Part shown: positions 11,668 to 25,820 of the stretch, piece by piece
How the letters are laid out: every line of letters starts with the position of its first letter
Numbering within the stretch: the first letter of the stretch is position 1
Source: Leptotrichia sp. oral taxon 879 str. F0557
GTDB lineage: Bacteria > Fusobacteriota > Fusobacteriia > Fusobacteriales > Leptotrichiaceae
Reading direction: 5' to 3'
NCBI RefSeq assembly: GCF_000469385.1
Contig: NZ_KI271291.1
Span: 32,170-70,161, forward strand
DNA length: 37,992 bases
Notes under the pieces: model-generated
Told to the model about the DNA's origin: nothing
The model's database searches: none
The model's input: only the letters and a program-made list of their open reading frames with translations
Program-made: the position numbers and the translations under genes

Positions 11668-13224
11668 ATGAAATTATCCGTAGGAATAATAACTTTTAAT
11701 GAGGAAAACAGAATTGGGAAAACTTTAGATTCAGTAAGAGAAATAGCTGATGAAGTAATAGTTGTAGACAGCGGAAGTAACGACAGAACTGTGGAAATTG
11801 CACTTGCGAAGGGAGCAAAAGTTTTTGTAGAAAAGTGGAAAGGATACGGTCCTCAAAAAAATGCTGTTTTAAAAAAATGCAAGAGTGAATGGATTTTGTT
11901 AATAGATGCTGACGAAGTAATATCGCCACAACTGAAGGAAAAAATAAAATCAATTATAAACAGTGAAAATCCATCAGGTGATGTTTACAAAATTAAACTG
12001 CGAAATATAGCTTTTAAAAAAGAAATAAAATTTGGCGGATGGGATGACTATGTAATCAGGTTATGGAAAAATGGAAAAGTAAAAATAAATAGCCGTGAAG
12101 TTCATGAACAATATCAAACTGATAGTCAAATAAAAAAAATAAAGGAAATGATAATCCACTATACTTACGATAGTATAGAAGAGTTCCTTGAAAAATTAAA
12201 TAGATATACTTCCCAAAGTGCTAAAGAATATATAAAAAAAGGTAAAAACCCAAGTTTTATAAAAATATATTCCAAAATGCTGTTCAGGTTTATAAAGATG
12301 TATATTTTGCAACTGGGGTTTCTGGATGGCTATGAAGGGTATTTGCTTGCTAAATATAGTTCCATCTATACAATGACAAAATATACAAAATTACGTGAAG
12401 AATATTATAATAACTTAGGAAACGATACTTCCCTTGTTATTACTACATACAATTGGCCAAAAGCTTTGGAAGCTTGTTTAAATAGTGTATTAGATCAAAC
12501 TGTTACACCGAAGGAAATTATAATTGCTGATGATGGCTCAAAGCAGGAAACAATAGATTTAGTAAAAAGATTTCAGCAAAGTTATCCTCAAAGCAATATT
12601 ATTCATTCGTGGCAGGAAGATAAGGGATTTCGTGCTGGAATGTCTAGAAATAGGGCGATAAGCAAGGCAACAGGTAATTATATAATAATAATTGATGGTG
12701 ATTTGATATTAAATAGGCATTTTGTTGAAGACCATATAAAAAATATGGAAAGAGGTTGTTTTATTCAAGGTTCACGAGTTATAACTTCACCAGCTGTGGC
12801 AAAGAAAATAATGGAAGGCAAAAAAATAAATCTTTTTACAAAAGGACTTAGAAACAATATGAATATGGTAAGAAGCAAACTTCTTTCAAAAATTTTTACA
12901 AAAGTAGATAGAAATTTACGTGGAGTAAGATCTTGCAACATGTCCTTCTTTAAAGATGATTTAATTAGAGTAAATGGTTTTGAAGAAGAAATAGAAGGCT
13001 GGGGAAGAGAGGATAGTGAACTTGCTGTAAGGCTGTTTAATATTGGATGTAAAAAGAAAAAACTCAAGTTTGAGGCTTTGACTTGCCATTTATATCATAA
13101 TGAAAATGACAGAAGCAGGTTGAAAAAAAATGATGAATATTTGGCAAATGCAATAGAGAATAAAAAAACAAAAGCTAAGAAAGGGCTTGATAGATATGAA
13201 AGAAGTAACGCTGGTAATAACTAG
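11668..13224 (+). CDS. Bifunctional glycosyltransferase: two fused GT2 domains
   Basis: This 518-aa protein carries two complete GT-A domains. Domain 1 (about residues 1-235) resembles WaaE/KdtX-type LPS core transferases: GIITFNEENRIGKTLDS, VVDSGSNDRT and the donor-binding DAD at residues 80-82. Domain 2 (about residues 253-510) is a second GT2 unit: VITTYNWPKALEACLNSVLD, IADDGS, an IIDGDLI motif with Asp343 and Asp345, and the catalytic-type GWGREDSELA with Glu448 and Asp449. The ATG at 11668 is chosen over the ATG at 11662 because AGGAG at 11656-11660 is spaced only for the later one. It overlaps the next gene by 29 nt. Two sequential sugar additions to one acceptor are inferred; each domain may use a different sugar. 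Confidence 0.85.
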   Translation: MKLSVGIITFNEENRIGKTLDSVREIADEVIVVDSGSNDRTVEIALAKGAKVFVEKWKGYGPQKNAVLKKCKSEWILLIDADEVISPQLKEKIKSIINSENPSGDVYKIKLRNIAFKKEIKFGGWDDYVIRLWKNGKVKINSREVHEQYQTDSQIKKIKEMIIHYTYDSIEEFLEKLNRYTSQSAKEYIKKGKNPSFIKIYSKMLFRFIKMYILQLGFLDGYEGYLLAKYSSIYTMTKYTKLREEYYNNLGNDTSLVITTYNWPKALEACLNSVLDQTVTPKEIIIADDGSKQETIDLVKRFQQSYPQSNIIHSWQEDKGFRAGMSRNRAISKATGNYIIIIDGDLILNRHFVEDHIKNMERGCFIQGSRVITSPAVAKKIMEGKKINLFTKGLRNNMNMVRSKLLSKIFTKVDRNLRGVRSCNMSFFKDDLIRVNGFEEEIEGWGREDSELAVRLFNIGCKKKKLKFEALTCHLYHNENDRSRLKKNDEYLANAIENKKTKAKKGLDRYERSNAGNN

Positions 13225-13930
13225 CTGTGGAAGATTCGATCTGCTGGAAGAAACGCTTGACAGCTTTTTTGAATGCAATACTTATCCAATTAAAAAGATA
13301 ATAATTACAGAAGACAGTACTGAAGGGAAAAAATTGGAGAGATTAATTTCAAAATATAACGATAAAAATAATAATTTCAAGCTTATAGTTAATGAAACAC
13401 GGCTGGGGCAATTAAAGTCAATTGATAAGGCTTACCGTGAGGTTGATACTAAGTATATTTTTCACTGTGAAGATGACTGGAAATTTTTGAAAAAAGGTTT
13501 TATTGAAAAATCAATGGAACTGATGGAGGAAGATGAAAAAATTCTAGTTGTTGGACTACGTGATAAAAAAGATTTTGCAAAAGATTTTTTTTATGACGAA
13601 GACTATATTTCAAAAAATGGCGAAAAATATTATAGTGTAAAAGGTGAAATATTTACTTATAATCCAGCCTTAAGAAGAAAAAAAGATATGGACTTATTTG
13701 GGCTTCACGAAAAATTGGAAAATCAGAGATATGAGGAAGCTTTATCTGATTTTTATAAAGAACATGGGTTTAAAACAGTATTTTTTAAGGAACCATATGT
13801 AACACATATTGGAAATAAAAGACACGTTCATTTTAGTAAAAATCGTAAAAATACTGTATTAAGCTTTAAAATTGATAGATTTATAAAAAAAATCAGAGCA
13901 AAAATCTTAAAGTTGAAAGGAAAATTATAA
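13196..13930 (+). CDS. GT2-like glycosyltransferase
   Basis: This 244-aa GT-A protein starts VTLVITSCGRFDLLEETLDS, the usual opening strand and helix of GT2 transferases. It has a CEDDW motif near residue 92, in the position of the metal/donor-binding DXD. The C-terminus ends in a strongly basic stretch (residues about 225-244) that may bind membrane lipids. The ATG at 13196 is chosen over the TTG at 13187 because AAGAAAGGG lies about 10 nt upstream of it. The gene begins inside the last 29 nt of the double-GT2 gene, in another frame, so translational coupling is likely. It is shorter than typical GT2 proteins, but the fold core seems complete. The sugar is unknown. Confidence 0.75.
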   Translation: MKEVTLVITSCGRFDLLEETLDSFFECNTYPIKKIIITEDSTEGKKLERLISKYNDKNNNFKLIVNETRLGQLKSIDKAYREVDTKYIFHCEDDWKFLKKGFIEKSMELMEEDEKILVVGLRDKKDFAKDFFYDEDYISKNGEKYYSVKGEIFTYNPALRRKKDMDLFGLHEKLENQRYEEALSDFYKEHGFKTVFFKEPYVTHIGNKRHVHFSKNRKNTVLSFKIDRFIKKIRAKILKLKGKL

Positions 13931-14253
13931 TTATATTTTAATGAATATTTTTCTTATTTTTTAGTTGTTATTTTTTTATGTTTCGTATAAAATATAGATA
14001 TAAATGGTTATAATAATTCCATTTTACATTTAATATCAAACTTGTATATCAAACAATCTTAGGTTTGGCTTAAATATTTATAATTTTTGAATTTGTTTTT
14101 AAAATAATATAAAATTAAAAAGAATAAATATAAAAACCTTTAATTTATGTTGAAGTATAAAATTAATATCTATTAAAATAAAAAATATTTACTAAAGTAA
14201 TTATTTTTCAGTATTTAGAATAATTTTACTATTTGTAAATAAAGGATGGAAAA
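13931..14253. other. AT-rich spacer without a recognisable gene
   Basis: This 323-nt gap separates the GT2 gene from the deacetylase gene. It is almost entirely A and T and has no reading frame of note. There is no clear intrinsic terminator. Candidate -10 boxes are too numerous in such sequence to choose one. It probably contains the end of the preceding transcript and a promoter for the next gene. Confidence 0.5.
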
Positions 14254-15321
14254 ATGATATATTTATTTTTAATAATAATTCTACTATTTTTTATATTTGT
14301 CATTTATAACAAAACTAGAAAAAATTTTGTTTTATGTCTTATGTATCATAGTGTTGACAGTGAAAAAGGAAAAGGTGGAATTTTTGTAGATGAATTTGAA
14401 GAACATATAAAATGGATAAAAGATAAAAAAACTTTTAAAATGGAGGAACTAAAGGGATTAAATTATACATTGCCACAAAATTCAATATTAATAACTTTTG
14501 ATGATGGTTATAAAAATAATTACACTTTAGCTTTTCCAATTTTGAAAAAGTATAATATGAAAGCTACAATATTTTTGAATACAAAATTTATTGAAAAAGA
14601 TGAAGCGTATTTAAACTGGGATGAAATAAGAGAAATGTATGAAAGCGGACTGGTTGATTTTCAGCTTCACACACATTCTCATCAGTTAACAGTAAAGGAT
14701 ATTGAAGTGCTTGCTTTTTATGATAATGAAAGTTCGTCATACTTCAAAAGAGAAAGCTATAATTTATTTTTTGAAGGAAATTATGATGAAAAAAAAGATA
14801 TGGAAAAATTAAATGGACTTCCAGTATTTAAATTAAGAAGTAAAATTTCAATTCCTGGATACAAACCAAAGAAAGATTTTGTAGAAAAATATCGAAATAT
14901 CGCAGAACTTCAAAAAAATAATAAACCAGAAAAAGAAAAAAAAGAATTTTTAAATAAATTATTTAAAGAAAATCAAAAAGAATTTTTTGATAAAGTTAGT
15001 GAAGAAGAGTTTAGAAAGATTGTAGAATTTGAAATTCTGGAAAATAAAAAAATTATTGAAGAAAAACTTGGAAAAACTCCAGATTGCCTTGCATATCCTT
15101 GGGGTCACCGATACAAAGGGAACCGAGAAGATATAAGAAAATTGGGAGTTGATGTATTTATTACTACAAGAAAAGGTGTAAATTCATTGAAACTTAATAA
15201 AAACTGGATTTATCGTGTAAGTGGAGACGATTTTGAAAGTTTTGATGAATTTAAAAATGAACTGACTGATGGAAGCAGTCCATATTATAGAAAATTACAA
15301 AAAATTTTCATAAAAAAATAA
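14254..15321 (+). CDS. Membrane-anchored polysaccharide deacetylase (NodB/CE4 domain)
   Basis: This 355-aa protein begins with an uncleaved hydrophobic anchor (residues about 2-20). The anchor is followed by a CE4 deacetylase domain: YHSVD (about residue 31), ITFDDGY with Asp83 and Asp84, the metal-binding pair in HTHSH (residues 139-143), and the active-site strand AYPWGH (residues 280-285). CE4 enzymes remove N- or O-acetyl groups from glycans using a metal ion, here presumably on a surface or periplasmic glycan. A lysine/glutamate-rich insertion of roughly 110-120 residues separates the HTHSH and AYPWGH motifs, longer than in the compact NodB fold. The gene follows the transferases and is 44 nt ahead of the ABC exporter, so LPS modification is the natural guess. 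Confidence 0.82.
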   Translation: MIYLFLIIILLFFIFVIYNKTRKNFVLCLMYHSVDSEKGKGGIFVDEFEEHIKWIKDKKTFKMEELKGLNYTLPQNSILITFDDGYKNNYTLAFPILKKYNMKATIFLNTKFIEKDEAYLNWDEIREMYESGLVDFQLHTHSHQLTVKDIEVLAFYDNESSSYFKRESYNLFFEGNYDEKKDMEKLNGLPVFKLRSKISIPGYKPKKDFVEKYRNIAELQKNNKPEKEKKEFLNKLFKENQKEFFDKVSEEEFRKIVEFEILENKKIIEEKLGKTPDCLAYPWGHRYKGNREDIRKLGVDVFITTRKGVNSLKLNKNWIYRVSGDDFESFDEFKNELTDGSSPYYRKLQKIFIKK

Positions 15322-15365
15322 CTGTGGAGAGGTGTTAAAACAATAATTATACGAAAGGTAAATAT

Positions 15366-17123
15366 ATGAAAAAAATAGAACTAGATTTTGGAGTAATTCA
15401 AAAATTAAAAAAATATATAAAAAAATATTATATATTAATCATACTAAATCTTTTACTTGCAACAATATCATCTCTTGTTTCTTCGGCTCCAATAGCTTTG
15501 GTAAAAAGGTTATTTGATAGGGGTATTGCGGGAAAAAGCGAAAAGGATATTTTGTATGCGGCAGGAGCAATGATAATGCTTGCAGTAATTGGTGCAGTTC
15601 TTATGTATTGGAATACAATTTTTTCAACTGTAATCTCATCTTCTATCTATAAGGATATAGTTACTGATATTTATAATAAAATACAGACTTTAGATATAGA
15701 ATATTTTTCAAGCAAAAAAATAGGAGATATAATGACACGTGTAATGACAGATCCTAGTAACATAAATTCTATTATATTAGAAATTTTTGATATGATTTCT
15801 GAAATAATAAAAGTGATATTTTTTTTAGGAATAGCATTTTACATAGATTTTGATTTGACTTTAGGAGTTATGATTGTTACTCCAATCCTTGTAATTACAG
15901 TAAGAAGATATGCAAAAAGACTAAAACGTTCAGGAAAACAGCGTCAAGAAGCATTAGATGGACTAAATTCCAAATTACAGGAAACATTGTCAGGAATTAG
16001 GATTATACGGGCATTTGCTACAGAAGAGTATGAAATAAATAATTTTAAGAAAAAAAATAATAATTTAAAAAAAATTGCTGTAAGATCTGCTAGATACAAT
16101 GCAAAAGCTAACTCCATTATGGAAGCTTTAAATTATATAATAATAGCACTTCTATTAATGTTTAGTGGATATCGTGTTTTGAGGGCAAAAAGTTTTACGC
16201 CTGGAGACTTTATTACAATAATAGGTGCTATCTCATCAATGTACACACCTGCAAGACGCGCCATAACAAGATTTAATGCAATAAATGTAAATTTATCCTC
16301 AATTACAAGAGTTTCTGAAATTCTGGAAGAAATTCCAAGTATTGTGAATCGACCAGACTGTGTGAAATTTAAATATTTTGCAGATAATATAAACTTTGAA
16401 AATGTAGATTTTCATTATAAAGATAATCCTGAAAAAATATTAAAAAATATCAATTTAAATGTAAAAAAAGGAGAAACTGTAGCTTTTGTCGGAAATTCAG
16501 GTGGTGGAAAATCCACACTTGTAAATTTAATACCAAGATTTTTTGATGTATCGGATGGTTCAATAAAGATTGATGGAATCGACATCAGAAATTATGATAT
16601 TAAAAGCCTTAGAAAAGCGATAGGAATTGTGCCACAGGAGACGTTCCTATTCGCAGGAACAATTCTTAGTAACATAAGATATGGCCGCCAGGACGCCACC
16701 AAAGAAGAAATTATAAAAGCTGCTATTCAAGCTAATGCACATGAATTTATTGAAAATCTGCCTGATGGATATGATACAGAAATTGGAGAACGTGGAGTAA
16801 AATTGTCAGGTGGACAGAAACAAAGAATTGCAATTGCACGTGCAATCTTAGAAAACCCTCAAATATTAATTTTGGATGAAGCGACTTCAGCTCTTGATAA
16901 TGAATCTGAAAAGCTAGTTCAGGACGCACTTGAAAAACTTATGAAAGGAAAAACTACATTTATTATCGCTCATAGGTTGACAACAATCGAAAATAGTAAT
17001 AAAATAGTGGTAATACAAAAAGGAGAAATAAAAGAGGTAGGAAATCATAATGAATTAATAAGCAAAAATGGAATTTACAAAGCGTTATATAATAAAAACT
17101 TTGATATTTCTAATAAAAATTAA
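15366..17123 (+). CDS. msbA: MsbA-like lipid/LPS ABC exporter (fused TMD-NBD)
   Basis: This 585-aa half-transporter has six transmembrane helices in the first 310 residues, followed by an ATPase domain. The ATPase shows Walker A GNSGGGKST (376-384), a Q-loop in VPQETFLFAG, the signature LSGGQKQR (from 480), Walker B ILILDEATSALD (about 500-511) and the H-loop IIAHRLTTI. The length and order match MsbA and related multidrug-type exporters, which act as homodimers. At the end of an LPS locus the likely task is flipping lipid A-core across the inner membrane. A general multidrug ABC exporter would look the same by motif. AAAGGTAAATAT precedes the ATG. No terminator is obvious after it. Confidence 0.8.
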   Translation: MKKIELDFGVIQKLKKYIKKYYILIILNLLLATISSLVSSAPIALVKRLFDRGIAGKSEKDILYAAGAMIMLAVIGAVLMYWNTIFSTVISSSIYKDIVTDIYNKIQTLDIEYFSSKKIGDIMTRVMTDPSNINSIILEIFDMISEIIKVIFFLGIAFYIDFDLTLGVMIVTPILVITVRRYAKRLKRSGKQRQEALDGLNSKLQETLSGIRIIRAFATEEYEINNFKKKNNNLKKIAVRSARYNAKANSIMEALNYIIIALLLMFSGYRVLRAKSFTPGDFITIIGAISSMYTPARRAITRFNAINVNLSSITRVSEILEEIPSIVNRPDCVKFKYFADNINFENVDFHYKDNPEKILKNINLNVKKGETVAFVGNSGGGKSTLVNLIPRFFDVSDGSIKIDGIDIRNYDIKSLRKAIGIVPQETFLFAGTILSNIRYGRQDATKEEIIKAAIQANAHEFIENLPDGYDTEIGERGVKLSGGQKQRIAIARAILENPQILILDEATSALDNESEKLVQDALEKLMKGKTTFIIAHRLTTIENSNKIVVIQKGEIKEVGNHNELISKNGIYKALYNKNFDISNKN

Positions 17124-17195
17124 CAAAAAATTATTGTGATTCATTTATATAAATTATATCTTATTTAAATAAATAAAAAGTTAGGAGAAAGAAAT

Positions 17196-17801
17196 ATGAA
17201 GCAAGTCAAAAGTGTCATTTTATTCCTATTGTCAGTTGTATTAGTGGCATTTGGAAGTCAAGATTCAAAAAATCCCAAAAATATAATTAAACAACTGGGA
17301 GATGAAACCAAAAAAGTTGGTGACAAAATAAAAGAAGTTAAAAAAGATGATAAAACTGATGCCAAGAAGAATGATTCAAAACAGCAGCCTACGCAACAGC
17401 AACCTACCGCAGTAGTAAATCCTGCACAGCCTCAGCAGCCTGCACCAAATATGCCGCAACAACAAGCAGCACCACAACAGCCTGTAGTAACTGATCCAAA
17501 TGCACAAAATCAAATGCCAGGTGTACCAAATGAAAACGGACTTAATGGAAAAAGAGGTAACAAAAAAAATAGAAAAAATAATAATGGCTTGTATAAAGTA
17601 CCTAAACATAGCCGTCTAAAAAACAATAATTCTTCTGCGGAAGTAGCGCCACAGGAAAAACCATCAAAAGTTAAATCACAAGATTCTGCTCCGAAATCAA
17701 CCGGAGGAAGCAGTAGCGGATCTGGAAGCGGAAGTAGCGGAGGAGGAAATAATTCCGGAGGTTCATCGTCTGGTGGTGGAGATTCAAGCTCGTCAGAATA
17801 G
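17196..17801 (+). CDS. Low-complexity exported protein, unknown function
   Basis: This 201-aa protein has an N-terminal signal-like segment (KQVKSVILFLLSVVLVAFGS, residues 2-21). There is no cysteine at the end of that segment, so it is not a lipoprotein by the lipobox rule; cleavage after AFG is plausible. The mature part has three zones: lysine/aspartate-rich (about 22-63), glutamine/proline-rich (about 64-107), and glycine/serine-rich to the C-terminus (about 166-201). No catalytic motif is visible and I do not recognise a family. AGGAGAAAG precedes the start. A 7-bp hairpin starts at the stop codon. It lies between the LPS exporter and the RnfD-like gene; a cell-surface or periplasmic linker or adhesin-like role is only a guess. 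Confidence 0.55.
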   Translation: MKQVKSVILFLLSVVLVAFGSQDSKNPKNIIKQLGDETKKVGDKIKEVKKDDKTDAKKNDSKQQPTQQQPTAVVNPAQPQQPAPNMPQQQAAPQQPVVTDPNAQNQMPGVPNENGLNGKRGNKKNRKNNNGLYKVPKHSRLKNNNSSAEVAPQEKPSKVKSQDSAPKSTGGSSSGSGSGSSGGGNNSGGSSSGGGDSSSSE

Positions 17802-17825
17802 ACAATTATATCAGAAGTTTGTCTA
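17799..17825 (+). terminator. Weak hairpin at the stop codon of the low-complexity gene
   Basis: TAGACAA (17799-17805) pairs with TTGTCTA (17819-17825), followed by ACAACTTTTTACT. The stem is short and the T-run is offset, so any termination would be partial and the RnfD-like gene may still be cotranscribed. Confidence 0.35.
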
Positions 17826-17892
17826 ACAACTTTTTACTGGGGTTAAGCAAAAATAAAATTAAATTATAAAAGAAAGGTAGTGAAATTTTAAT

Positions 17893-18927
17893 ATGTTTAG
17901 AAAGAAAAAGGAATTACAGGAAAATATAACAAAGACAAATATAGATATTTTAGTGTCTCTGCTTCCTATGTTGTTTGTTGCATTCTTTATTTATGAAACA
18001 ACACCACTTCTAGTAATTTTATCAGCAGTAGGAGCTTCAGAAGCGGTAGACATAATATTTTCATTAATAATACAGAAAAATAAAGGAACATTAAAGGATC
18101 TTTCGGGAATTACAATAGGAGCTTTGACAGGGCTTGTTCTTGCTCCATTTACTCCACTTTATGTAGCAGCATTTGCAGGAGGGACAGCGACATTATTTGG
18201 AAAAGCTGTATATAGAGGGACAGATAAAAAGATTTTTAATCCAGTAATATTAGGAAAATTATTCGTATTGACGTTTTTCCCAGCTATTTTAGCTCCAAAT
18301 TCACAAGCGTGGACTAATTCAGAAGTGTTAAAAATTTCAGGGCAGAACATGACAGGATTAGCTTCATTTATTCTAGTAGATAGAGGGATTATTGGTGAAC
18401 TTTCAATAGTTGCCATGGTTATAGGAGCAATATATCTAATCTTTAGAACAAAGATAACATGGCATATTCCTGTATCATTCTTTGTTACAATCTTCTTTGG
18501 ATACTATATTACAGCAGCTTATAATATTAATGTAGTAACTACTCTTGGAGAAATTATTTTTATGGGAATTTTTGTATTAACAGATAGCTTTACTACCCCT
18601 AGACATGGACTTGGAAAAGTATTTTTTGGATTTTTAGCTGGACTTTCTACAATAATATTCTGGTTTTTAGGAATTCATACTGAAGCAATTATTTATTCCG
18701 TATTAATTTTAAATCCTTTCACAAAACCTATAAATACAATATTCAAGCCAAATGTATTTGGTGTTGAATCTGTTTCTTTTGCTGAAATAATACAAGGGAT
18801 TGGTTTTGCAATTATTGTAGTTTTAATTGTATTTGCAACATCTTACCTGCATACTTATGGATTTATTCCATATATTGTTTATATTTATGTTGTATACGGA
18901 ATATGGCGATTATATAACAACAGATAA
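17893..18927 (+). CDS. RnfD/NqrB-family membrane protein, orphan
   Basis: This 344-aa polytopic protein of about ten helices has the length of RnfD. It shares its landmarks: a D-x-S-G-I-T-I-G-A-L-T-G-L helix early on, IGELSIVAMVIGAIYLIF and KITWHIPVSF in the middle, and GIFVLTDSFTTPR, which corresponds to the ATDPVTSP-type motif. In Rnf and Nqr complexes this subunit carries a covalently bound FMN on a threonine of an S-G-A-T-type motif. At the matching place this protein reads NMTGLASF (residues 152-159), so the threonine appears to be replaced by Ala157 (or Ser158). No other rnf/nqr gene or apbE is in the window. GAAAGG precedes the start by about 15 nt. It is 17 nt upstream of mfd. Electron-transport activity is doubtful. 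Confidence 0.75.
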   Translation: MFRKKKELQENITKTNIDILVSLLPMLFVAFFIYETTPLLVILSAVGASEAVDIIFSLIIQKNKGTLKDLSGITIGALTGLVLAPFTPLYVAAFAGGTATLFGKAVYRGTDKKIFNPVILGKLFVLTFFPAILAPNSQAWTNSEVLKISGQNMTGLASFILVDRGIIGELSIVAMVIGAIYLIFRTKITWHIPVSFFVTIFFGYYITAAYNINVVTTLGEIIFMGIFVLTDSFTTPRHGLGKVFFGFLAGLSTIIFWFLGIHTEAIIYSVLILNPFTKPINTIFKPNVFGVESVSFAEIIQGIGFAIIVVLIVFATSYLHTYGFIPYIVYIYVVYGIWRLYNNR

Positions 18928-18944
18928 AAAAGGGAAGGCTTTTT

Positions 18945-21900
18945 ATGAACTTTAACTTAAGTTTTTTAGATAAAATAGAAAAAATAAAAGATAAAAAAAT
19001 AGATATTTTACAATCTGAAAATAATTTTTACCGCGGTGCAATTCCGTGGTTTTTATTATGTTCGGAAAAGAAAAAGATAATTTATATTTCCACATCCAAC
19101 AGAAATTTGGAAAATTATCATGCAATGCTGGAAAATTACTATGAAATGTCAGAAAAACAAAAAGATATTTTAATGAAAAAATCTAAAACTGATAAAAAAA
19201 ATATTAAAGAAAGTAAAAATAAACTGGAAGATAAAAAAATAATTGATATTTTTGAAAATATCTCACAAAATAAGGAAGATATTACAGGAATAAATATAAG
19301 ACTGCTGGATATTTTAAAAAATCAGGAAAAATTTATTTTATTTGTAAATTTACAGATTACTTTGGATATTTTTTTTGAAAAAGTTAAGTTTTTTTCTTTT
19401 GAGATTGGAAAAGAATATAGTTTTACGAAAATTGTAGAATTTCTTGTGGAAAATGGGTATGAAAATTCATATTTGATTGAAAAAAAGGGGCAGTACAGCA
19501 GACGTGGGGATATTCTTGATATTTTCCCGCCAGATTTGGAACATCCTGTTAGACTCGAGTTTTTTGGTGATGAACTGGAAAGTATAAGAGTTTTTGATAT
19601 TGATAGCCAGATTTCTGTGGAAAAGGTGGAAGAAATAAAAGTTTTTGGAAATTTGCTTTCTGGAAATAATTATGAATTGATAGAGCTTATTGATGAATTA
19701 AGGGCAGAAGACGTAACGATTGTTGTTGAAAATGAGGAATTGCTGGACTATAAAATGGAAGAGTTTATTTTGCTTGACAGAAGCCGTGAGGAAATTTATC
19801 GAAAAAGATATGAAAATCTGAAGAAAAAAAGTATTTTTGTGCAGACTAAAAATTTCTCGCAGGAACAGATTGAGACTTTCAGGGATAAAAATAGGCTTGA
19901 AAAATTGTCAAAAATTGAAGATGTTTATATTTTTACGAATAACTATGAGAAGAAAATGGCTGAATTTGGACAAATTCTGACTGAAAAGGAAAACAATCTG
20001 GAAATTGAAAAATATGAGCTGTTTGAAGGATTTATCTTTAATGACAGTTCAGAAAATCTAGATACTAAAAATAGAAAAAATAATTTTATTGTGCTTACAG
20101 ACAGGGAGCTTGACGGATATATTTACGAGCGAAAGAAAAAAACAGCAAAAGCTATAAAATATAAAAAAGTCAATCAGATAATCGAAGGTGACTATGTAAT
20201 CCACGTTCAATATGGTGTTGGAATTTATAAAGGAATTCAGACAATGGAAGAGCGGGATTATTTGAAAATCAAGTATGCTGATGAGGATATTTTGTATATT
20301 CCTGTGGAAAAGCTGGACAGACTTGAAAAATATGTGTCAAATGATACGGAACCGCAATTATTCAGGCTAGGAACACGTGGATTCAAGCGAAAAAGGAAAA
20401 AACTCGAAGAAGATATTCAGAAATTTGCGGCAGAACTTATCAAAATACAGGCACGACGGCAAAGTCAGAATGGTTTTGTATATCAGAAGGATACTGTATG
20501 GCAGGAGGAATTTGAAGCAAATTTTCCATTTGAGGAAACAGAAGATCAGAGAAATGCCATAAATGATGTGAAAAAGGATATGGAAAGTCCGCAAATAATG
20601 GACAGGATTGTCTGTGGAGATGTTGGATATGGGAAAACGGAAGTTGCAATGAGAGCCGCATTTAAAGCGATTGACAATGGAAAGCAGGTTGTTATGGTGG
20701 CTCCAACTACCGTACTTGCAGAACAGCATTTTGAGCGGTTTAAAAGAAGATTTGAAAATTATCCGATTACAATTGAGAATTTATCACGGCTTACAAAAAA
20801 TAAATCAAAGGACATTTTAAAAAATCTGAAAAGTGGAATTATTGACTTAGTTATTGGAACTCACAGGCTTCTAAGTGATGACGTGCAGTTTAAGAACTTA
20901 GGGCTTTTAATTATTGATGAGGAGCAGAAATTTGGAGTTAAGGCTAAAGAAAAGTTAAAATCTCAAAGGGAAAAGCTGGATGTGCTGACATTAACTGCGA
21001 CTCCGATTCCACGTACTCTAAACCTTGCGATGCTTGGAATCCGTGAAATTTCCATAATTGACACTCCGCCAACGAACAGACTTCCTATTATAACAGATAT
21101 TCTCGATTGGGATGAGGAAACAATAAAAATGGCGATACTGCGTGAACTGTCACGTGATGGGCAAGTTTTCTATATTTATAATGATGTAAAAAATATGAAG
21201 GAAAAATTGAAGGAACTGAAGGAAATGCTTCCAGACTTTGTAAAAATCGAATTTATAAATGGGCAGCTTCCGCCAAAGGAAATTAAGGATAAGTTATTGC
21301 GTTTTGAAAACGGGCAGTTTGACATTCTAATTGCTTCAACAATCATTGAAAATGGAATTGACGTGGGAAATGCCAATACCATCCTGATTGAAAACTTTAC
21401 TGGCTTGGGATTATCTCAAGTTTACCAGCTAAAAGGGCGTGTAGGACGTAGCAACAGACAAGGTTACTGTTATTTATTAAAAACGAGAAATATTACAAAG
21501 CAGGGGCGACAGAAGGAAGAAAGCATGCTAAAGGTGGAAGGTATAAAATCAGGCGGTTTTCAAATTTCGATGGAAGACTTGAAAATACGTGGTGCTGGCG
21601 AAATTTTGGGAGATAAGCAGCACGGAACGATTGAAACTTTTGGATATGATTTATATATAAAAATGCTAAATGAGGAAATTCGTAAGCAAAAGGGCGAGTT
21701 TATCGAAAAAATTGAAAATGTGGAAATTATTCTGGATGAAAGAGGATTTATTCCAGAAACATATATTGAAAAGAATGAGAGACTGAATATCTATAAACGT
21801 TTTGCAATGCTGGAAACAAATGACGAATTGACGGAACTGCTGGATGAAGTGAGAGATAGGTTCGGGAAAATTCCAGAGCAGATGAAAAAATTTATTTTAA

Positions 21901-22154
21901 GCATTAAATTAAAATTATTTGCTGAAAAACATAAAATTCAGAGAATTTTTGAAACAAGAAATTATTTTGAACTGTACTTTTTGGAAAATGCACAGAAAGA
22001 GCAGGCAGAATTAAATGAAAAATTTGAAATGAAGAAAGTTGTAAAAACTATTGATGCAGTAAGTCCGAAAGGGAAAAATAAAGAGGAGGATACAGTTGAT
22101 AATCTTGTTGTAATGAAAGTAAGAAAATCAGATTTTTTAACTGTTGTGGAATAA
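18945..22154 (+). CDS. mfd: Transcription-repair coupling factor
   Basis: Mfd displaces RNA polymerase stalled at DNA lesions and recruits UvrA. The 1069-aa protein has a UvrB-like N-terminal region with YSRRGDILDIFPP (about residues 182-194). It also has an RNA-polymerase-interacting domain starting near GDYVIHVQYGVGIYKG (about 415). The RecG-like helicase has Walker A GDVGYGKTEVA (about 560), an IIDEEQKFG motif, TATPIPRTL and the GRVGRSNRQGYCYLL motif VI. The UvrA-masking C-terminal domain follows (about 930-1069). It is somewhat shorter than the roughly 1150 aa of typical Mfd, mainly in the N-terminal part. AGGGAAGG precedes the ATG. The gene is close behind the RnfD-like gene, which makes cotranscription possible. 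Confidence 0.96.
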   Translation: MNFNLSFLDKIEKIKDKKIDILQSENNFYRGAIPWFLLCSEKKKIIYISTSNRNLENYHAMLENYYEMSEKQKDILMKKSKTDKKNIKESKNKLEDKKIIDIFENISQNKEDITGINIRLLDILKNQEKFILFVNLQITLDIFFEKVKFFSFEIGKEYSFTKIVEFLVENGYENSYLIEKKGQYSRRGDILDIFPPDLEHPVRLEFFGDELESIRVFDIDSQISVEKVEEIKVFGNLLSGNNYELIELIDELRAEDVTIVVENEELLDYKMEEFILLDRSREEIYRKRYENLKKKSIFVQTKNFSQEQIETFRDKNRLEKLSKIEDVYIFTNNYEKKMAEFGQILTEKENNLEIEKYELFEGFIFNDSSENLDTKNRKNNFIVLTDRELDGYIYERKKKTAKAIKYKKVNQIIEGDYVIHVQYGVGIYKGIQTMEERDYLKIKYADEDILYIPVEKLDRLEKYVSNDTEPQLFRLGTRGFKRKRKKLEEDIQKFAAELIKIQARRQSQNGFVYQKDTVWQEEFEANFPFEETEDQRNAINDVKKDMESPQIMDRIVCGDVGYGKTEVAMRAAFKAIDNGKQVVMVAPTTVLAEQHFERFKRRFENYPITIENLSRLTKNKSKDILKNLKSGIIDLVIGTHRLLSDDVQFKNLGLLIIDEEQKFGVKAKEKLKSQREKLDVLTLTATPIPRTLNLAMLGIREISIIDTPPTNRLPIITDILDWDEETIKMAILRELSRDGQVFYIYNDVKNMKEKLKELKEMLPDFVKIEFINGQLPPKEIKDKLLRFENGQFDILIASTIIENGIDVGNANTILIENFTGLGLSQVYQLKGRVGRSNRQGYCYLLKTRNITKQGRQKEESMLKVEGIKSGGFQISMEDLKIRGAGEILGDKQHGTIETFGYDLYIKMLNEEIRKQKGEFIEKIENVEIILDERGFIPETYIEKNERLNIYKRFAMLETNDELTELLDEVRDRFGKIPEQMKKFILSIKLKLFAEKHKIQRIFETRNYFELYFLENAQKEQAELNEKFEMKKVVKTIDAVSPKGKNKEEDTVDNLVVMKVRKSDFLTVVE

Positions 22155-22200
22155 ATTCAAAAGGTATTCATAAACAGAAATTAGTTTTTATTTTAAAATT

Positions 22201-22228
22201 TTGAAATATATAAAAATTGTGGTAAAAT
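22201..22228 (+). promoter_or_regulatory. Promoter for the exported esterase gene
   Basis: TTGAAA (22201-22206) and TAAAAT (22223-22228) are 16 nt apart. TGG before the -10 gives an extended -10. It lies about 50 nt upstream of the start at 22280, in the 125-nt gap after mfd. Confidence 0.5.
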
Positions 22229-22279
22229 TTATAAAAGGGTTTATTTAATTGAATAAAAATTGAGAAGGAGAAAGTGTAT

Positions 22280-23581
22280 ATGAAAAAAGTATTATTATTT
22301 CTAGCAATATTTGGTATGTTATTGTCAACTGGTATTATTTCAGCAGAAACTACCACTACATTAAAAACAGAAAAGATAAAATATCCAAAAGGAATAAAAA
22401 ATGTAACATCTGTAACAGAAGTCTTTGGAAATGGACAGCAGATTACACATATTATTATAGAATTTAATGAAAAAGTAGTAAATTCACAGCTTTCAAGGGA
22501 TACCTTCGCCGTATCAGGCAGAACTGTGGAAAGAGTTTATTCAAATACTCAGCCTGAAAAAACAAATATTGTTAAAGATGGAAAATATATAATTATTGAA
22601 CTAAATCCAAAAGACAAGGAAGCTTCTTTGCGTATAGAAGGCGGAGCTGAAATAGGTTTTCAAATGAGAAAGGCAACTTCCAAAATAACACAAAAAGAAG
22701 ATATTTTATTCACAAATGGAAAAAAAATGGAAAAAAGCATTGCAATATTTGAAAATAACAAAACAAAAAATTTAGTTGTAGAAAATTTTAAGCAATTTGT
22801 ATTTAAAGATCCAAGAACTGGAACAAGTGTTAAATATAATTTATATATTCCAAAAAATTATGACAGAAATAAAAAATATCCACTTGTACTGTTTATGCAC
22901 GACATGGGTGTTTTAAGTGAAGATACGAAAACTACACTTCTACAGGGAAATGGAGCAATTTCTTTTGCGACACCTGAAGAACAGGCAAAACATGAGGCAT
23001 TTGTACTAGCTCCACAATATTCTAGACAAGTTGTTGATGACAATGGTGATATTACAAGTGATCTGGAAGCAACTGTCAATCTAGTAAGAGAATATCTTCC
23101 TTCCAGATATAACATTGATACTAAGAGAATTTACGCCACTGGACAGTCAATGGGTGGAATGATGGCAATTGTTATGAATTCCAAATATCCTGATTTGTTT
23201 GCCGCTTCATATCTAGTCGCATGCCAATGGGATGACAAGGAAACCGCGCCAATGGCAAAAAATAACTTATGGATTTTAGTTTCTACGGGAGATGCAAAAG
23301 CTTATCCTGGAATGAATGCCATAACAAATGAACTTACAAAAATGGGAGGAACTGTGACAAAAGAAACATGGAAGGCTGACTATACAGAAGGACAGTTTCT
23401 AGAAAGTACAAGAATACTTGCCGCACAAAAATCAAATATAAAATATACAACACTTGAAAAAGGGACAAATCCATACTTGCCAAAAGATGCCAATCCAGGC
23501 TCTGAACATTCAGGAACTTGGAAAGTAGCTTATAGCATACCTGGCATTAAAGACTGGATGTTTTCTCAAACGAAGCAGTGA
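22280..23581 (+). CDS. Exported alpha/beta-hydrolase (esterase/peptidase-like)
   Basis: This 433-aa protein has a cleavable signal peptide (MKKVLLFLAIFGMLL, cleavage near ISA-ET at residue 22). An N-terminal beta-rich, Ig-like domain runs to about residue 155. The alpha/beta-hydrolase domain begins at the strand KYPLVLFMHD. The catalytic triad is readable as Ser290 in GQSMGG, Asp338 in STGDAK and His410 in SEHSGTW. This layout matches secreted esterases and prolyl-oligopeptidase-like enzymes of the feruloyl-esterase/PHB-depolymerase group. The ATG at 22280 is chosen over GTG 22274 because GAAGGAG is spaced about 9 nt from it and the signal peptide starts there. It has its own promoter after mfd. 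The substrate is unknown; an ester or peptide hydrolase acting in the periplasm or outside is inferred. Confidence 0.78.
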   Translation: MKKVLLFLAIFGMLLSTGIISAETTTTLKTEKIKYPKGIKNVTSVTEVFGNGQQITHIIIEFNEKVVNSQLSRDTFAVSGRTVERVYSNTQPEKTNIVKDGKYIIIELNPKDKEASLRIEGGAEIGFQMRKATSKITQKEDILFTNGKKMEKSIAIFENNKTKNLVVENFKQFVFKDPRTGTSVKYNLYIPKNYDRNKKYPLVLFMHDMGVLSEDTKTTLLQGNGAISFATPEEQAKHEAFVLAPQYSRQVVDDNGDITSDLEATVNLVREYLPSRYNIDTKRIYATGQSMGGMMAIVMNSKYPDLFAASYLVACQWDDKETAPMAKNNLWILVSTGDAKAYPGMNAITNELTKMGGTVTKETWKADYTEGQFLESTRILAAQKSNIKYTTLEKGTNPYLPKDANPGSEHSGTWKVAYSIPGIKDWMFSQTKQ

Positions 23582-23629
23582 ACAGCGTTAAAGAATTTTA
23601 AATAAAAATTTGAAAGCGAGAAATAAAAA

Positions 23630-24358
23630 GTGGAAGAATTAAGAGAAGTATTGAAAACTGAAGATTTAACACAAACTGAATATCAAGGCAGAACTTTTGA
23701 AGTATTAATAAAATCATTTAAAACACATAAAAAGTTTTTATTTCTAGCTTTTGTATTATTTGGAATTAATGGATATGTATTAAAAAACTTTATTGTGTTT
23801 CAAACAATCAGCAAAGAAGAACTAATTACAAGCTTTTTAATTACAGTGGCAACTGAGTTTATACTAAGTTTATTTCAAAATAGTGTTATAAGCAAAATTA
23901 GAGAGAAAAATGAACTGGATAAAACTAATTTAATATTTAAGTCCATTGTTCTAAGTATAATAATGACTTCAATAAATTTTAGTATTCTTATGATGAGCAA
24001 CAACTTGGCATCCTCTACAATTATAATTGTGCTTGCACTCTGTTTTTCATATTTCAGACAAGTTTATCTGTCTAGAGACTTTAATTTTTTTGAATCTATT
24101 GAAGAAAATTTTAAACTTCTAGATGGAAATAGAAAAAGGATTATCATCCCTTTTATTGTTGTTAATATAATTTTTTATATTTTATCTTTCATTTTTCTCG
24201 TATTTGCTGTAATAATTGGAAATTATTCAACAGACGCTAGTTCAGAGCTGATGGTAATAGTCATTTTAGTTCTGTTTAAACTGGCAGATGGAATAAATGA
24301 ATTTTACAGAAAAATTTTAGCAGGTATAATTTTCTTAAATGTAGAAAATAATCAATAA
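23630..24358 (+). CDS. Integral membrane protein of unknown function
   Basis: This 242-aa protein has a cytoplasmic-looking N-terminal stretch of about 33 residues and then about six hydrophobic segments (near residues 35-52, 65-85, 100-118, 122-140, 170-195 and 203-222). I do not recognise a family and see no catalytic motif. The start is a GTG; the upstream GAAAGCGAG is a mediocre ribosome binding site, but no better start is in frame. It follows the esterase gene by 48 nt and precedes another membrane protein gene by 31 nt, so the three may form one transcript. The gene is clearly coding: an uninterrupted frame with hydrophobic helices. Confidence 0.6.
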   Translation: MEELREVLKTEDLTQTEYQGRTFEVLIKSFKTHKKFLFLAFVLFGINGYVLKNFIVFQTISKEELITSFLITVATEFILSLFQNSVISKIREKNELDKTNLIFKSIVLSIIMTSINFSILMMSNNLASSTIIIVLALCFSYFRQVYLSRDFNFFESIEENFKLLDGNRKRIIIPFIVVNIIFYILSFIFLVFAVIIGNYSTDASSELMVIVILVLFKLADGINEFYRKILAGIIFLNVENNQ

Positions 24359-24389
24359 ATCAAATGAAAAATTTAGAAAGGAGACGCTA

Positions 24390-25058
24390 TTGACTTTTAG
24401 TTATTTTAGCCCTATTCATATAGAAACTTTTATTGTTTCAATTTTATTTTGCATATTTTTATTCTATATTCCAAAATTTTTTAAGAATATAGATATAAAG
24501 AAATATTCAACATTTTTAGGATATTTTTTGTTAATATTTAAAATAGTTGATTCGATTTATAGGCTGATGTATCAGAATGAACCTATAACCAATGTTACAC
24601 CTGTGCATCTTTGTAATTTTGCAGCAATTTTTGCAGGATTGTATTTAATTTTTAGAACAAAATTTTTATATAATGTAGTTTATTATTTAACTTTTGGGCC
24701 AGTATTGGCACTAATTCTGCCCGGGATAATTTACTATCATGACAACTATTATGTCTATATTTTTATGATAATGCATGCACTTATTGTATTTACAGTTTTT
24801 TTTGGATATGAATATCTAGATGAAAGACCTACAAAAAAAGGATTTATTCAATCAATAATCGCATTACTTCTTATATTTCTTTATGCGTTTATCTACAACT
24901 TTATCTTTAAGGAAATAAATGCAATGTTTTTAAAAAGCCACATTATCCCACAAGTGAAGTTTATAAATCCTATCTGGTTATATGATATTGTTCTGATTTC
25001 TACAATGATTTTTTTAGAATTTTTGTTATATTTGCCAGTTATGAAAAGAAAGGTTTAA
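24390..25058 (+). CDS. YwaF/TMEM164-family (TIGR02206-like) membrane protein
   Basis: This 222-aa protein has about seven membrane helices. It resembles the bacterial YwaF family, which is related to eukaryotic TMEM164. The diagnostic segment TPVHLCNFAAIFAGLYLIF places His73 and Cys75 at the start of a helix. YLTFGPVLALILPG and MIMHALIVF (His130) follow. In TMEM164 the equivalent region has been linked to acyl transfer on ether phospholipids; whether bacterial YwaF proteins do this is not established. The TTG start at 24390 is supported by AGAAAGGAG 6 nt upstream. It is the last long gene before the terminator at 25102. Function should be treated as unknown. Confidence 0.65.
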   Translation: MTFSYFSPIHIETFIVSILFCIFLFYIPKFFKNIDIKKYSTFLGYFLLIFKIVDSIYRLMYQNEPITNVTPVHLCNFAAIFAGLYLIFRTKFLYNVVYYLTFGPVLALILPGIIYYHDNYYVYIFMIMHALIVFTVFFGYEYLDERPTKKGFIQSIIALLLIFLYAFIYNFIFKEINAMFLKSHIIPQVKFINPIWLYDIVLISTMIFLEFLLYLPVMKRKV

Positions 25059-25059
25059 T

Positions 25060-25116
25060 ATGAATCTTTGGAAAAGTTTTAAAAAAAAAGAAGAAGAAAG
25101 AAAAGTACACCACTGA
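25060..25116 (+). CDS. Possible 18-aa micro-ORF
   Basis: An ATG at 25060 opens 18 codons (MNLWKSFKKKEEERKVHH) directly after the YwaF-like gene. AGAAAGG lies 6 nt upstream, a good spacing. The last four codons and the stop run through the left arm of the terminator stem. The peptide would be highly charged. It could be a real small protein, a translated spacer that affects termination, or chance. Confidence 0.25.
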   Translation: MNLWKSFKKKEEERKVHH

Positions 25117-25169
25117 TATTAGTATTATTATGTATTTATAATTTTAGTATTTTAGGTGTACTTTTTTAT
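25102..25169. terminator. Terminator with 11-bp stem and 42-nt loop, bidirectional
   Basis: AAAAGTACACC (25102-25112) pairs perfectly with GGTGTACTTTT (25155-25165), with T-runs on both strands. It separates the rightward membrane-protein genes from leftward spoVG. The loop is unusually long and AT-rich. Confidence 0.75.
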
Positions 25170-25178
25170 TAAAAAATT

Positions 25179-25463
25179 TTATTCAGTTTCAGATTGAGCT
25201 GCACTTTCCTGCTCAAATTTTTCCAGAATAACTTTTGTTATTTCAGTACGAAGTTCAGGTTTAATTGGATGAACTATGTCCTTAAATTCTCCATTCGGCA
25301 TTCTTCTTGATGGCATTGCCACAAACAATCCGTTTTGTCCATCGATTATTTTTAATCCATGAATTACAAAACTTTCATCAAATGTGATGTCAGCATAAGC
25401 TCTTAATCTCTCGTTGTTCTCTGTTTGTTTTCCAATTCTAATACGAATATCAGTTACTTTCAT
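25179..25463 (-). CDS. spoVG: SpoVG family regulator
   Basis: SpoVG is a small RNA/DNA-binding regulator. It is known from sporulation and septation in Bacillus, and from cell-surface and virulence regulation in Staphylococcus, Listeria and Borrelia. The protein is 94 aa from the ATG at 25463, beginning KVTDIRIRIG, with the typical DESFVIHGLKIIDGQNGLFV and AMPSRRMPNGEFKDIVHPI motifs near residues 29-68. The longer frame to 25499 is rejected because AGGAGAAG sits 6 nt before 25463 and family members begin at MKVTD. No sporulation gene is in the window, so a general RNA-binding role is more likely. It has its own promoter and shares the terminator at 25102-25169. Confidence 0.93.
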   Translation of the reverse strand: MKVTDIRIRIGKQTENNERLRAYADITFDESFVIHGLKIIDGQNGLFVAMPSRRMPNGEFKDIVHPIKPELRTEITKVILEKFEQESAAQSETE

Positions 25464-25503
25464 AAGTCTTCTCCTTGTTTGTATAAATTTATCTTCCACT
25501 ATA

Positions 25504-25531
25504 ATTATACCCTATTTATCCTAAAAAACAA
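25504..25531 (-). promoter_or_regulatory. Promoter for spoVG
   Basis: On the minus strand TTGTTT (25526-25531) and TATAAT (25504-25509) are separated by 16 nt. The -10 lies 40 nt upstream of the spoVG start, inside the 93-nt gap after the S4-domain gene. Confidence 0.6.
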
Positions 25532-25556
25532 GAGATAAAACAATATTTCCTCATAA

Positions 25557-25802
25557 TTATCCAATTATTTCAATATATTCGTCAATAAGTTCTTTTTTAA
25601 GGCTTTCAGGCGGTAGATCCAGTACTTTTACCTTTATATTCTTGTTAAAATACTTTATGTCAAAAATATCGCCTTTTTTTACATCATAAGAAGATTTCTT
25701 CTGTTCTCCATTTACGGCAATATTTCCGTTATCTGCCAGCTCCTTTGCCACAGTTCTTCTTTTTATGATTCTTGTTACTTTTAAAAATTTGTCTAAACGC
25801 AT
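25557..25802 (-). CDS. rqcP: S4-domain RNA-binding protein, RqcP/Hsp15-like
   Basis: This 81-aa protein consists of one S4 domain: RLDKFLKVTRIIKRRTVAKELAD at the N-terminus, then GNIAVNGEQKKSSYDVKKGD (about residues 26-45). This is the RqcP (YabO)/Hsp15 type, which binds stalled 50S subunits carrying peptidyl-tRNA and supports C-terminal alanine tailing with RqcH. GAGGGG precedes the ATG. It lies 18 nt downstream of the PhnD-like gene and is probably in the same transcript. No rqcH is visible here. The assignment to RqcP rather than another small S4 protein rests on length and opening motif. Confidence 0.82.
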   Translation of the reverse strand: MRLDKFLKVTRIIKRRTVAKELADNGNIAVNGEQKKSSYDVKKGDIFDIKYFNKNIKVKVLDLPPESLKKELIDEYIEIIG

Positions 25803-25820
25803 TTTTCCCCTCTATTTTTA

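Follow-up and report, generated by a model that had tools for sequence, protein, structure and literature searches.

The subject of this analysis is an RnfD-like gene in a stretch of 37,992 nucleotides from Leptotrichia sp. oral taxon 879 str. F0557 (contig NZ_KI271291.1, positions 32,170 to 70,161 of the forward strand; 2.4 Mb assembly GCF_000469385.1), which we refer to as the window and whose numbering is used throughout. The gene is an open and intact reading frame lying between the gene for a small exported or membrane-anchored protein and mfd (Table 1). Its 344 amino acid product lacks the threonine to which RnfD proteins attach flavin mononucleotide (FMN), and in this it resembles a whole subfamily, here designated RnfD*, whose members usually lie beside genes for a small tail protein, the flavin transferase ApbE and RnfC. 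The window gene itself would be a duplicate of such an RnfD* gene that has been stripped still further.

The protein matches the RnfD/NqrB family PF03116 with an E value of 3e-47 (161.9 bits against a cut-off of 27.7). This is its only Pfam domain, with no fused PF00175, and its scores fall under the cut-offs of both TIGR01946 (rnfD; 118.3 bits against 207.05) and TIGR01937 (the NqrB equivalog; 45 bits against 349.9). An AlphaFold2 (AF2) model with a mean predicted local distance difference test score (pLDDT) of 87.9 and a predicted template modelling score (pTM) of 0.87 contains 12 predicted helices of at least 10 residues, the linker at approximately residues 131–165 being its low-quality region. 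The closest structural match is RnfD (9eri_D; Z 30.7, 277 residues aligned, all within residues 1–293), followed by NqrB at Z ~28. A sequence-only reading of the window had assigned the protein to RnfD/NqrB on the strength of its membrane core and an LTDSFTTP motif, and both of these are present. The gene is open in all 13 genomes of the genus and in one further genome of the family (G066), and the ratio of non-synonymous to synonymous substitution rates (dN/dS) against six orthologues ranges from 0.08 to 0.20; judged by these values, the gene is real and under purifying selection in Leptotrichia. Among the matches listed, the nearest named relative is the protein of Leptotrichia hongkongensis, with 82% identity.

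In C. tetanomorphum RnfD, FMN is linked at Thr153 (PMC9588780; this and the other articles identified by PMC number are cited for the portions of them available to us). A phmmer alignment to that structure (7zc6_D), counted by hand, sets Thr153 against Glu144 of the window protein, whilst in MAFFT alignments the flavin-site column contains no threonine in the window protein and the partner residue is Glu144 or Ser149 depending on the alignment, because the linker is gapped. Nothing resembling the flavinylation motif D-x-x-[ST]-G-A-[ST] occurs anywhere in the protein. The absence of the FMN threonine, already proposed from the sequence alone, is thus upheld by the alignment to a solved RnfD, by MAFFT and by the motif search, no alignment having placed a threonine at the site. 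The position proposed for it was mistaken, however. Residues 154–158 do indeed read TGLAS, but these pair with the ATGAA region of 7zc6_D, and the true site lies about 10 residues nearer the N-terminus, at WTNSEV (residues 140–145). Loss of covalent flavin from the window protein is well supported by these comparisons.

The same reading went on to suggest a flavin-free RnfD derivative with another job. As far as covalent flavin is concerned this stands, but outright absence of flavin is unsupported, because all 38 site-less proteins of the family retain both riboflavin-binding residues, Asn116 and Asp231 in the window protein. In A. woodii RnfD, changing the equivalents of these two residues abolished activity (PMC11889175).

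How widespread is the loss? PF03116 was found in 85 of 98 genomes of the phylum. Within the family Leptotrichiaceae (33 genomes) the flavin threonine is absent from 38 of 42 PF03116 proteins. FMN_bind and RnfA/E are confined to the same four genomes, and all four of these have an RnfD with the threonine. The 38 site-less proteins comprise 14 of the window type (13 in the genus and one in G066), 10 of a long type, 11 others, two of a third type and a single protein from genome G087. None carries the full ApbE motif; four loose ApbE-like matches occur elsewhere in the 38 (SGAT at position 223 of L052 among them), none in the window protein, and a threonine occupies the Thr153 column, without the motif, in one of the 11 others (L068) and in one of 35 proteins from Bacteroidota and Oxalobacter. 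Scanning named genomes with the site-less alignment (two short peptide patterns) yielded at least 79 loci, a figure that gives no measure of prevalence. The 79 listed consist of 39 site-less loci (L142–L180) and 40 canonical ones (L181–L220), the former hosted by Leptotrichiaceae, many Bacteroidota, three Oxalobacter and one metagenome-assembled genome titled Thalassovita. Every one of the 39 has a C-terminal extension, compared with none of the 40 canonical loci from the same scan. A tree was built from 88 proteins, those of the family being a selection, on an alignment stripped of linker and extension. One branch, with a Shimodaira–Hasegawa-like approximate likelihood ratio test (SH-aLRT) value of 99, separates all 63 site-less rows from the rest, which requires one change of state; the window and third types group together (SH-aLRT 87). 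On this tree the loss of the flavin threonine is ancestral and marks a subfamily, rather than the window gene alone. RnfD* was seen in three phyla among the matches listed.

Other arrangements were also seen. Two RnfD-like proteins of Fusobacteriaceae type, each of 442 amino acids (L092:4941-6269 and L093:4720-6048), have a membrane domain without the flavin site and end in NAGATKYIE, possibly a C-terminal flavin motif on RnfD itself; no FMN_bind domain was detected in the L092 protein, the one of the two that was tested. At L081:5024-6703, L090:4778-6304 and L083:4272-6044, RnfD–FMN_bind fusions (by Pfam in L081 and L090) with C-terminal GGAT- or AGA[TS]-type motifs lie beside an RnfC-like gene.

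Around RnfD* the usual gene order is tail protein, ApbE, RnfC, RnfD*. RnfC is present at 36 of the 39 site-less loci and at 32 of the 40 canonical ones. ApbE is present at 34 of 39 compared with 1 of 40, the latter count coming from a blastp search at 50 bits with a pair of reference ApbEs, so that distant ones may escape and some loci are short contigs. The RnfDs lacking a flavin site are therefore those beside a flavin transferase. As FMN_bind proteins are absent from eight of the ten operon-bearing genomes tested, ApbE must there have another target. By eye, the ApbEs of the operon have no N-terminal signal or anchor; cytosolic ApbEs are known from Klebsiella (PMC12052999). In G073, G074 and G080, ApbE was matched as two pieces, with RnfC and RnfD* matches still present.

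What lies downstream of RnfD* points to delivery of electrons outside the cytosol. At 12 Bacteroidota loci (L159, L160, L162, L165, L166, L169, L172, L173, L175–L177 and L179), a gene whose product is of nitroreductase type (PF00881 in L159), exported and in most cases lipoprotein-like, begins no more than 25 bases after RnfD*. At L174 and L178 the exported protein in this place has DAISGAS, an instance of the classical motif; the L174 protein is PNPOx-like by Pfam. The RnfD* proteins of Bacteroidota and Oxalobacter keep residues of the FMN pocket, with Arg130, Glu185 and Ser284 conserved in 35 of 35 and Gly237 in 34 of 35. A pocket retained without its own threonine would fit a flavin supplied from outside, as has been proposed for Nqr/Rnf-like complexes (Huang 2024, PMC11334425).

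The best candidate for the carrier of that flavin is the tail protein. It consists of an N-terminal helix (LFLFGIxLIxFGN), a variable central part, mostly charged, and an end of strict pattern. Filtering the 34 ApbE-bearing site-less loci gave 30 tail open reading frames (ORFs), from which L180 was removed by eye before the motif comparison; no ORF passed the filter at L144 (contig start), L149 (two frames), L170 (51 amino acids) or L173 (58 amino acids). All 29 compared (24 distinct ends) finish in E-x-[AS]-[STHA]-[GADSE]-[ST]-x, with Glu at −7, Ala/Ser at −5 and Ser/Thr at −2, as against a mean of 0.01 of 29 in shuffles. Across L143–L180, 31 of 33 ApbE-adjacent tail proteins end in the motif. 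One of these is split over two frames (L149, where the second piece carries the end), and another is the 51-residue helix-plus-motif protein of L170, which was excluded from the motif definition. The two without it are L173, whose tail protein has 58 amino acids, and L180, which has EKASAS inside but not at its end. The motif terminates 31 of 4973 ORFs of the 79 loci, each of them a tail protein or a piece of one, and none of 2544 ORFs of the canonical loci. A tail-type protein at L147, which has no ApbE, ends in EKSGGSQ. ApbE flavin-tags are reported to perform best at a protein terminus, and changing the Asp of the D-x-x-[ST]-G-A-[ST] motif had a minor effect in one substrate (PMC12052999). 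That the flavin of RnfD* has moved onto this Ser/Thr-tipped protein is what we infer, unproven as it is, from the sequence evidence. Weak Pfam and NCBIfam matches of the tail proteins were rejected as composition. Tail proteins linked to ApbE in Leptotrichia at L105, L106, L110 and L111 have 2–4 EKATSS-like strings and might be flavinylated at several sites.

The protein encoded immediately upstream of the window gene appears to be a relative of these tail proteins. A hidden Markov model (HMM) of the tail N-terminus, trained without window-type members and without L175 and L180, found the window's 201 amino acid protein at E 3.1e-6 among 1226 ORFs (L180 matched at 3.4e-6), the next match below the family being at 0.14. 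It detected 12 of the 14 window-type small proteins, L046 and L051 being the two not found. By this criterion the upstream protein is a tail-protein relative without the motif, which ends none of the 14, although in two of them a single loose match lies within a stretch rich in Ser. A match of the upstream protein to TatA (21.4 bits against a cut-off of 72) was likewise rejected as composition. A gene of this small exported type lies directly upstream of RnfD* at all 14 window-type loci, and the suggestion that the window protein works with its upstream neighbour is to this extent strengthened.

The window copy has lost more than its threonine. The N-terminal arm of RnfD is buried in RnfC (PMC9588780), and the arm motif P-[HYF]-[IV]-[RK] occurs in none of the 14 window-type proteins. 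It is present in 9 of 10 proteins of the long type, in 10 of 11 of the other RnfC-type site-less ones and in 30 of 30 canonical proteins from outside the family. In the FMN pocket, the column of Arg130 holds Arg in 9 of 10 long and 11 of 11 other proteins, in G087 and in 34 of 34 canonical Fusobacteriota proteins, and that of Gly237 holds Gly in all 21 long and other proteins and in 34 of 34 canonical ones (Ala in G087); the window type has Lys122 and Glu220 in these places. Ser284 is replaced by Ile, Val or Leu in 14 of 14 window-type proteins, and 10 of these 14 retain Glu185.

Partner genes have gone as well. Whole-genome searches of the window genome (G000) found no RnfA/E (PF02508) and no FMN_bind (PF04205), and within the window no further PF03116, ApbE, FMN_bind, RnfA/E or RnfC_N match. 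No RnfC was counted either: a single partial RnfC_N match, in a frame of 174 amino acids, passes the cut-off only with its neighbours and is taken for a biotinyl-type domain, and similar partial matches in G075 and G066 (frames of 166–174 amino acids across the three genomes) were treated in the same way. The earlier description of the gene as an orphan, with no rnf or nqr subunit or flavin transferase nearby, is therefore accurate for this genome. Elsewhere it has one ApbE and a second RnfD-like gene, also site-less, and no canonical RnfD or rnf operon. Of the long and other proteins, 21 in all, just two are without the arm motif: the product of this second gene (L037; TSHIN for TPYIR) and L066 in G075 (TPCLR). 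G000 and G075 are the two genomes of the genus without RnfC. ApbE is absent from G075 too, and its tail protein is motif-less. G066 has the window-type pair alone, with neither ApbE nor RnfC. Since the window pair persists through these losses, the window-type protein can apparently do without RnfC and ApbE.

Taken together, these results suggest the following account. An RnfD subfamily has shed its own FMN threonine and acquired two C-terminal helices. In the usual module, electrons from NADH would pass by way of RnfC to RnfD* and cross the membrane via non-covalent riboflavin, the outer FMN pocket being supplied with a flavin whose anchor is not RnfD*'s own threonine and which is most likely attached by ApbE to the Ser/Thr tip of the tail protein. 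The window gene would be a duplicate in which the FMN pocket has been rebuilt around a Lys–Glu pair, the RnfC-docking motif has gone and the partner tail has no motif, the inner riboflavin residues being retained. Such a protein, we infer, has ceased to carry electrons from one side of the membrane to the other. It probably holds one riboflavin in its inner half and acts in the membrane with the upstream protein as its partner, in a flavin-sensing or ion-conducting role on the old RnfD scaffold. Sequence comparison establishes the clade, the operon, the residues lost or retained and the losses that go together; the flavin on the tail, the end of electron transfer and the present role are an interpretation of these. 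As a whole, we give this account an even chance of being correct. In its most specific form, FMN has been moved by a signal-less ApbE to the penultimate residue of a membrane-tethered, disordered tail that plugs the vacated pocket of RnfD*, making an NADH-driven module that spans Fusobacteriota, Bacteroidota and Oxalobacter, from which a Leptotrichia duplicate was stripped into a single-flavin protein. This version is tentative, and we think it rather more likely to be wrong in some part than right in all.

Several observations weigh against the account. As regards the flavin on the tail, the operon tail proteins have a variant motif and not the classical D-x-x-[ST]-G-A-[ST]; FMN_bind proteins are present in two of the ten operon genomes tested; and the charge rule places the tail outside (net +2.3 before the helix, −0.1 after), in conflict with an ApbE that has no visible signal peptide. 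In the genus Leptotrichia the ApbE-linked tail proteins are not motif-ended, mostly having one to four EKATSS-like strings inside, and that of the window genome itself has EKAAAS only. A rival target for ApbE exists in RnfD* itself, where an ApbE-like string (DMPSSAS, DMPTSAT-like) occurs at the TD motif of Asp248 in 13 of 39 site-less loci (L148, L149, L151, L153, L154, L156–L158, L161, L167, L168, L171 and L180); as it is not conserved across the 39, we take it for chance. As regards the stripping of the window copy, the arm motif is missing from the four canonical Leptotrichiaceae RnfDs, whose operons include RnfC, and from both third-type proteins despite an adjoining RnfC gene, the count over the two groups taking in the RnfC on the short contig of L072, so that absence of the arm is no proof that RnfC has been lost. 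The Lys–Glu pair also occurs in the third type, beside RnfC, and Glu185 is lost in the long type, which is mostly RnfC-linked (8 Ser, 1 Ala and 1 Leu of 10). The window genome has kept ApbE intact though RnfC has gone, and the retained Asn and Asp may serve an ion instead of riboflavin.

Of the alternatives, the one that survives best is that electrons still cross the membrane through the window protein, which would have riboflavin inside, a loose flavin outside, a cytosolic donor other than RnfC and the exported protein as acceptor. The invariant riboflavin residues and the conserved small exported-type gene upstream speak for such a conduit, and site-less membrane domains of Nqr/Rnf-like type have been proposed as conduits (PMC11334425). 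However, the FMN-pocket Arg, Gly and Ser are replaced in 14 of 14, the arm motif is absent, there is no FMN_bind protein in the genome and no candidate donor was found, all of which make this alternative unlikely, if still worth taking seriously. Doubtful to a slightly greater degree is a channel for ions or small solutes built on the RnfD scaffold, in which the Lys–Glu pair would line a polar path at the former place of FMN. All 16 proteins of the two grouped types (window and third) do combine Lys122 with Glu220, Asp248 of RnfD has been proposed as a Na+ site (PMC9588780), and the model aligns with AmtB and urea transporters at Z ~11, a resemblance already noted for RnfD (PMC9588780). Against this, a Z of ~11 can be reached by chance for helical models, A. 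woodii RnfD is argued not to conduct Na+ (PMC11889175) and there is no evidence for a substrate.

A transporter of riboflavin or FMN is improbable. The riboflavin residues are kept and relatives have ApbE and tail genes in their operon, but an FMN riboswitch is present in all 23 family genomes with PF03116 and lacking in nine of the ten without it. This is the opposite of what an importer predicts, and a riboflavin importer is therefore disfavoured. The riboswitch adjoins riboflavin-synthesis genes (judged by eye) in 10 of 11 loci inspected and in the window genome, and around the window gene (window positions 13000–26000) no Rfam model matches at gathering scores. At the eleventh of these loci, L128, from a genome without PF03116, the FMN riboswitch lies beside a transporter-like gene. 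It should also be noted that co-occurrence of riboswitch and PF03116 in the 33-genome family is confounded with genome reduction. Flavinylation of an otherwise ordinary RnfD at some other position, such as the nearby Ser143 or Thr141, is very improbable given that neither is conserved among orthologues and that the full ApbE-like motif occurs in 0 of 38. Least credible of all is that the gene is in decay, left over from an Rnf complex since lost: ApbE and RnfC have been lost piecemeal in Leptotrichia, but the low dN/dS and the reading frames open throughout the genus speak against decay. Heme binding by His191 and His320 was considered and dropped because the usual RnfD topology would put them at opposite faces of the membrane.

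In comparison with known systems, the window protein shares with RnfD (TIGR01946, PF03116) the ten-helix core, the riboflavin Asn and Asp and the TD..T[ST]P motif. It differs in having no FMN threonine, a rebuilt FMN pocket, no RnfC-arm motif and two extra helices, in a genome with no other Rnf subunit except the second RnfD*-like gene. NqrB of Na+-NQR is alike in fold, but the genome lacks the PF02508 and FMN_bind subunits. The two-subunit Nqr/Rnf-like systems likewise have an NqrB/RnfD-type membrane domain without its own flavinylation site, and one-way passage of electrons, with covalent flavin on the partner, has been proposed for them (Meheust 2021, PMC8238504; Huang 2024, PMC11334425). 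As described there, an NAD domain of NqrF type (PF00175) is fused to the membrane domain and the partner is an extracytosolic FMN_bind protein, whereas the RnfD* operon encodes RnfC separately together with a low-complexity tail protein, and FMN_bind is mostly absent from the genome; no partner of either kind lies near the window copy. The tail motif resembles ApbE flavin-tags (PMC12052999) in being a short Ser/Thr motif favouring a terminus, and differs in being natural, C-terminal, and furnished with Glu and variable small residues, its flavinylation being putative. No description of a tail–ApbE–RnfC–RnfD* module was found in the open-access literature searched by title and start of abstract (subscription papers lie outside this scope; PMC9973259 and PMC12174285 gave background only).

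The gene order of the window locus (deacetylase, ABC transporter, small protein, RnfD*, mfd) is shared with other genera, and from among these conserved neighbours ApbE and RnfC appear to have been lost. The features are collected in Table 1. Upstream of the gene, 29 promoter-like sites in positions 15200–19200 compare with 23.2 (standard deviation 5.3) in shuffles, which is indistinguishable from chance. Further along, positions 24390–25058 encode a membrane protein of the TMEM164 family (PF14808, E 4e-30), which takes its name from a eukaryotic protein, and the GC skew flips from positive to negative at approximately 24000–26000, probably marking a change of main coding strand.

Table 1 Features of the window gene and its surroundings (window coordinates)
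Feature	Position	Strand	Basis
ABC transporter, conserved upstream neighbour	15366..17123	+	Synteny, Pfam
Small exported or membrane-anchored low-complexity protein, 201 amino acids; putative tail-protein relative without the motif	17196..17801	+	HMM match
RnfD*-type membrane protein, window type, 344 amino acids	17893..18927	+	PF03116; AF2; dN/dS
Residues 1–16, position of the RnfC-docking arm; motif absent	17893..17940	+	Motif counts
Asn116, equivalent to riboflavin-binding Asn124 of C. tetanomorphum RnfD	18238..18240	+	38/38 site-less family, 52/52 wider set
Lys122, replacing FMN-pocket Arg130	18256..18258	+	Lys in 14/14 window-type, 2/2 third-type
WTNSEV, residues 140–145, position of the canonical flavinylation motif	18310..18327	+	phmmer against 7zc6_D, MAFFT
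TGLAS, residues 154–158, decoy site	18352..18366	+	Starts 11 residues past Thr153 of 7zc6_D
Glu220, replacing FMN-contacting Gly237	18550..18552	+	Glu in 14/14 window-type, 2/2 third-type
Asp231, equivalent to riboflavin-binding Asp248	18583..18585	+	38/38 site-less family, 52/52 wider set
Extra C-terminal two-helix hairpin, residues 296–343, including His320	18778..18921	+	AF2 helices 296–321 and 325–343
mfd, conserved downstream neighbour	18945..22154	+	TIGR00580, 874 bits; synteny

What these proteins offer is a core subunit of Rnf/Nqr type that has lost covalent flavin and, within a single branch, the flavin pocket and the electron donor as well, the remainder being under selection. The combination of RnfC, RnfD*, ApbE and tail protein is a small, testable module in which a C-terminal tail may serve ApbE as a substrate of a new kind. 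Beyond this, RnfD* allows one to ask what electron transfer requires of RnfD, and what the fold does otherwise.

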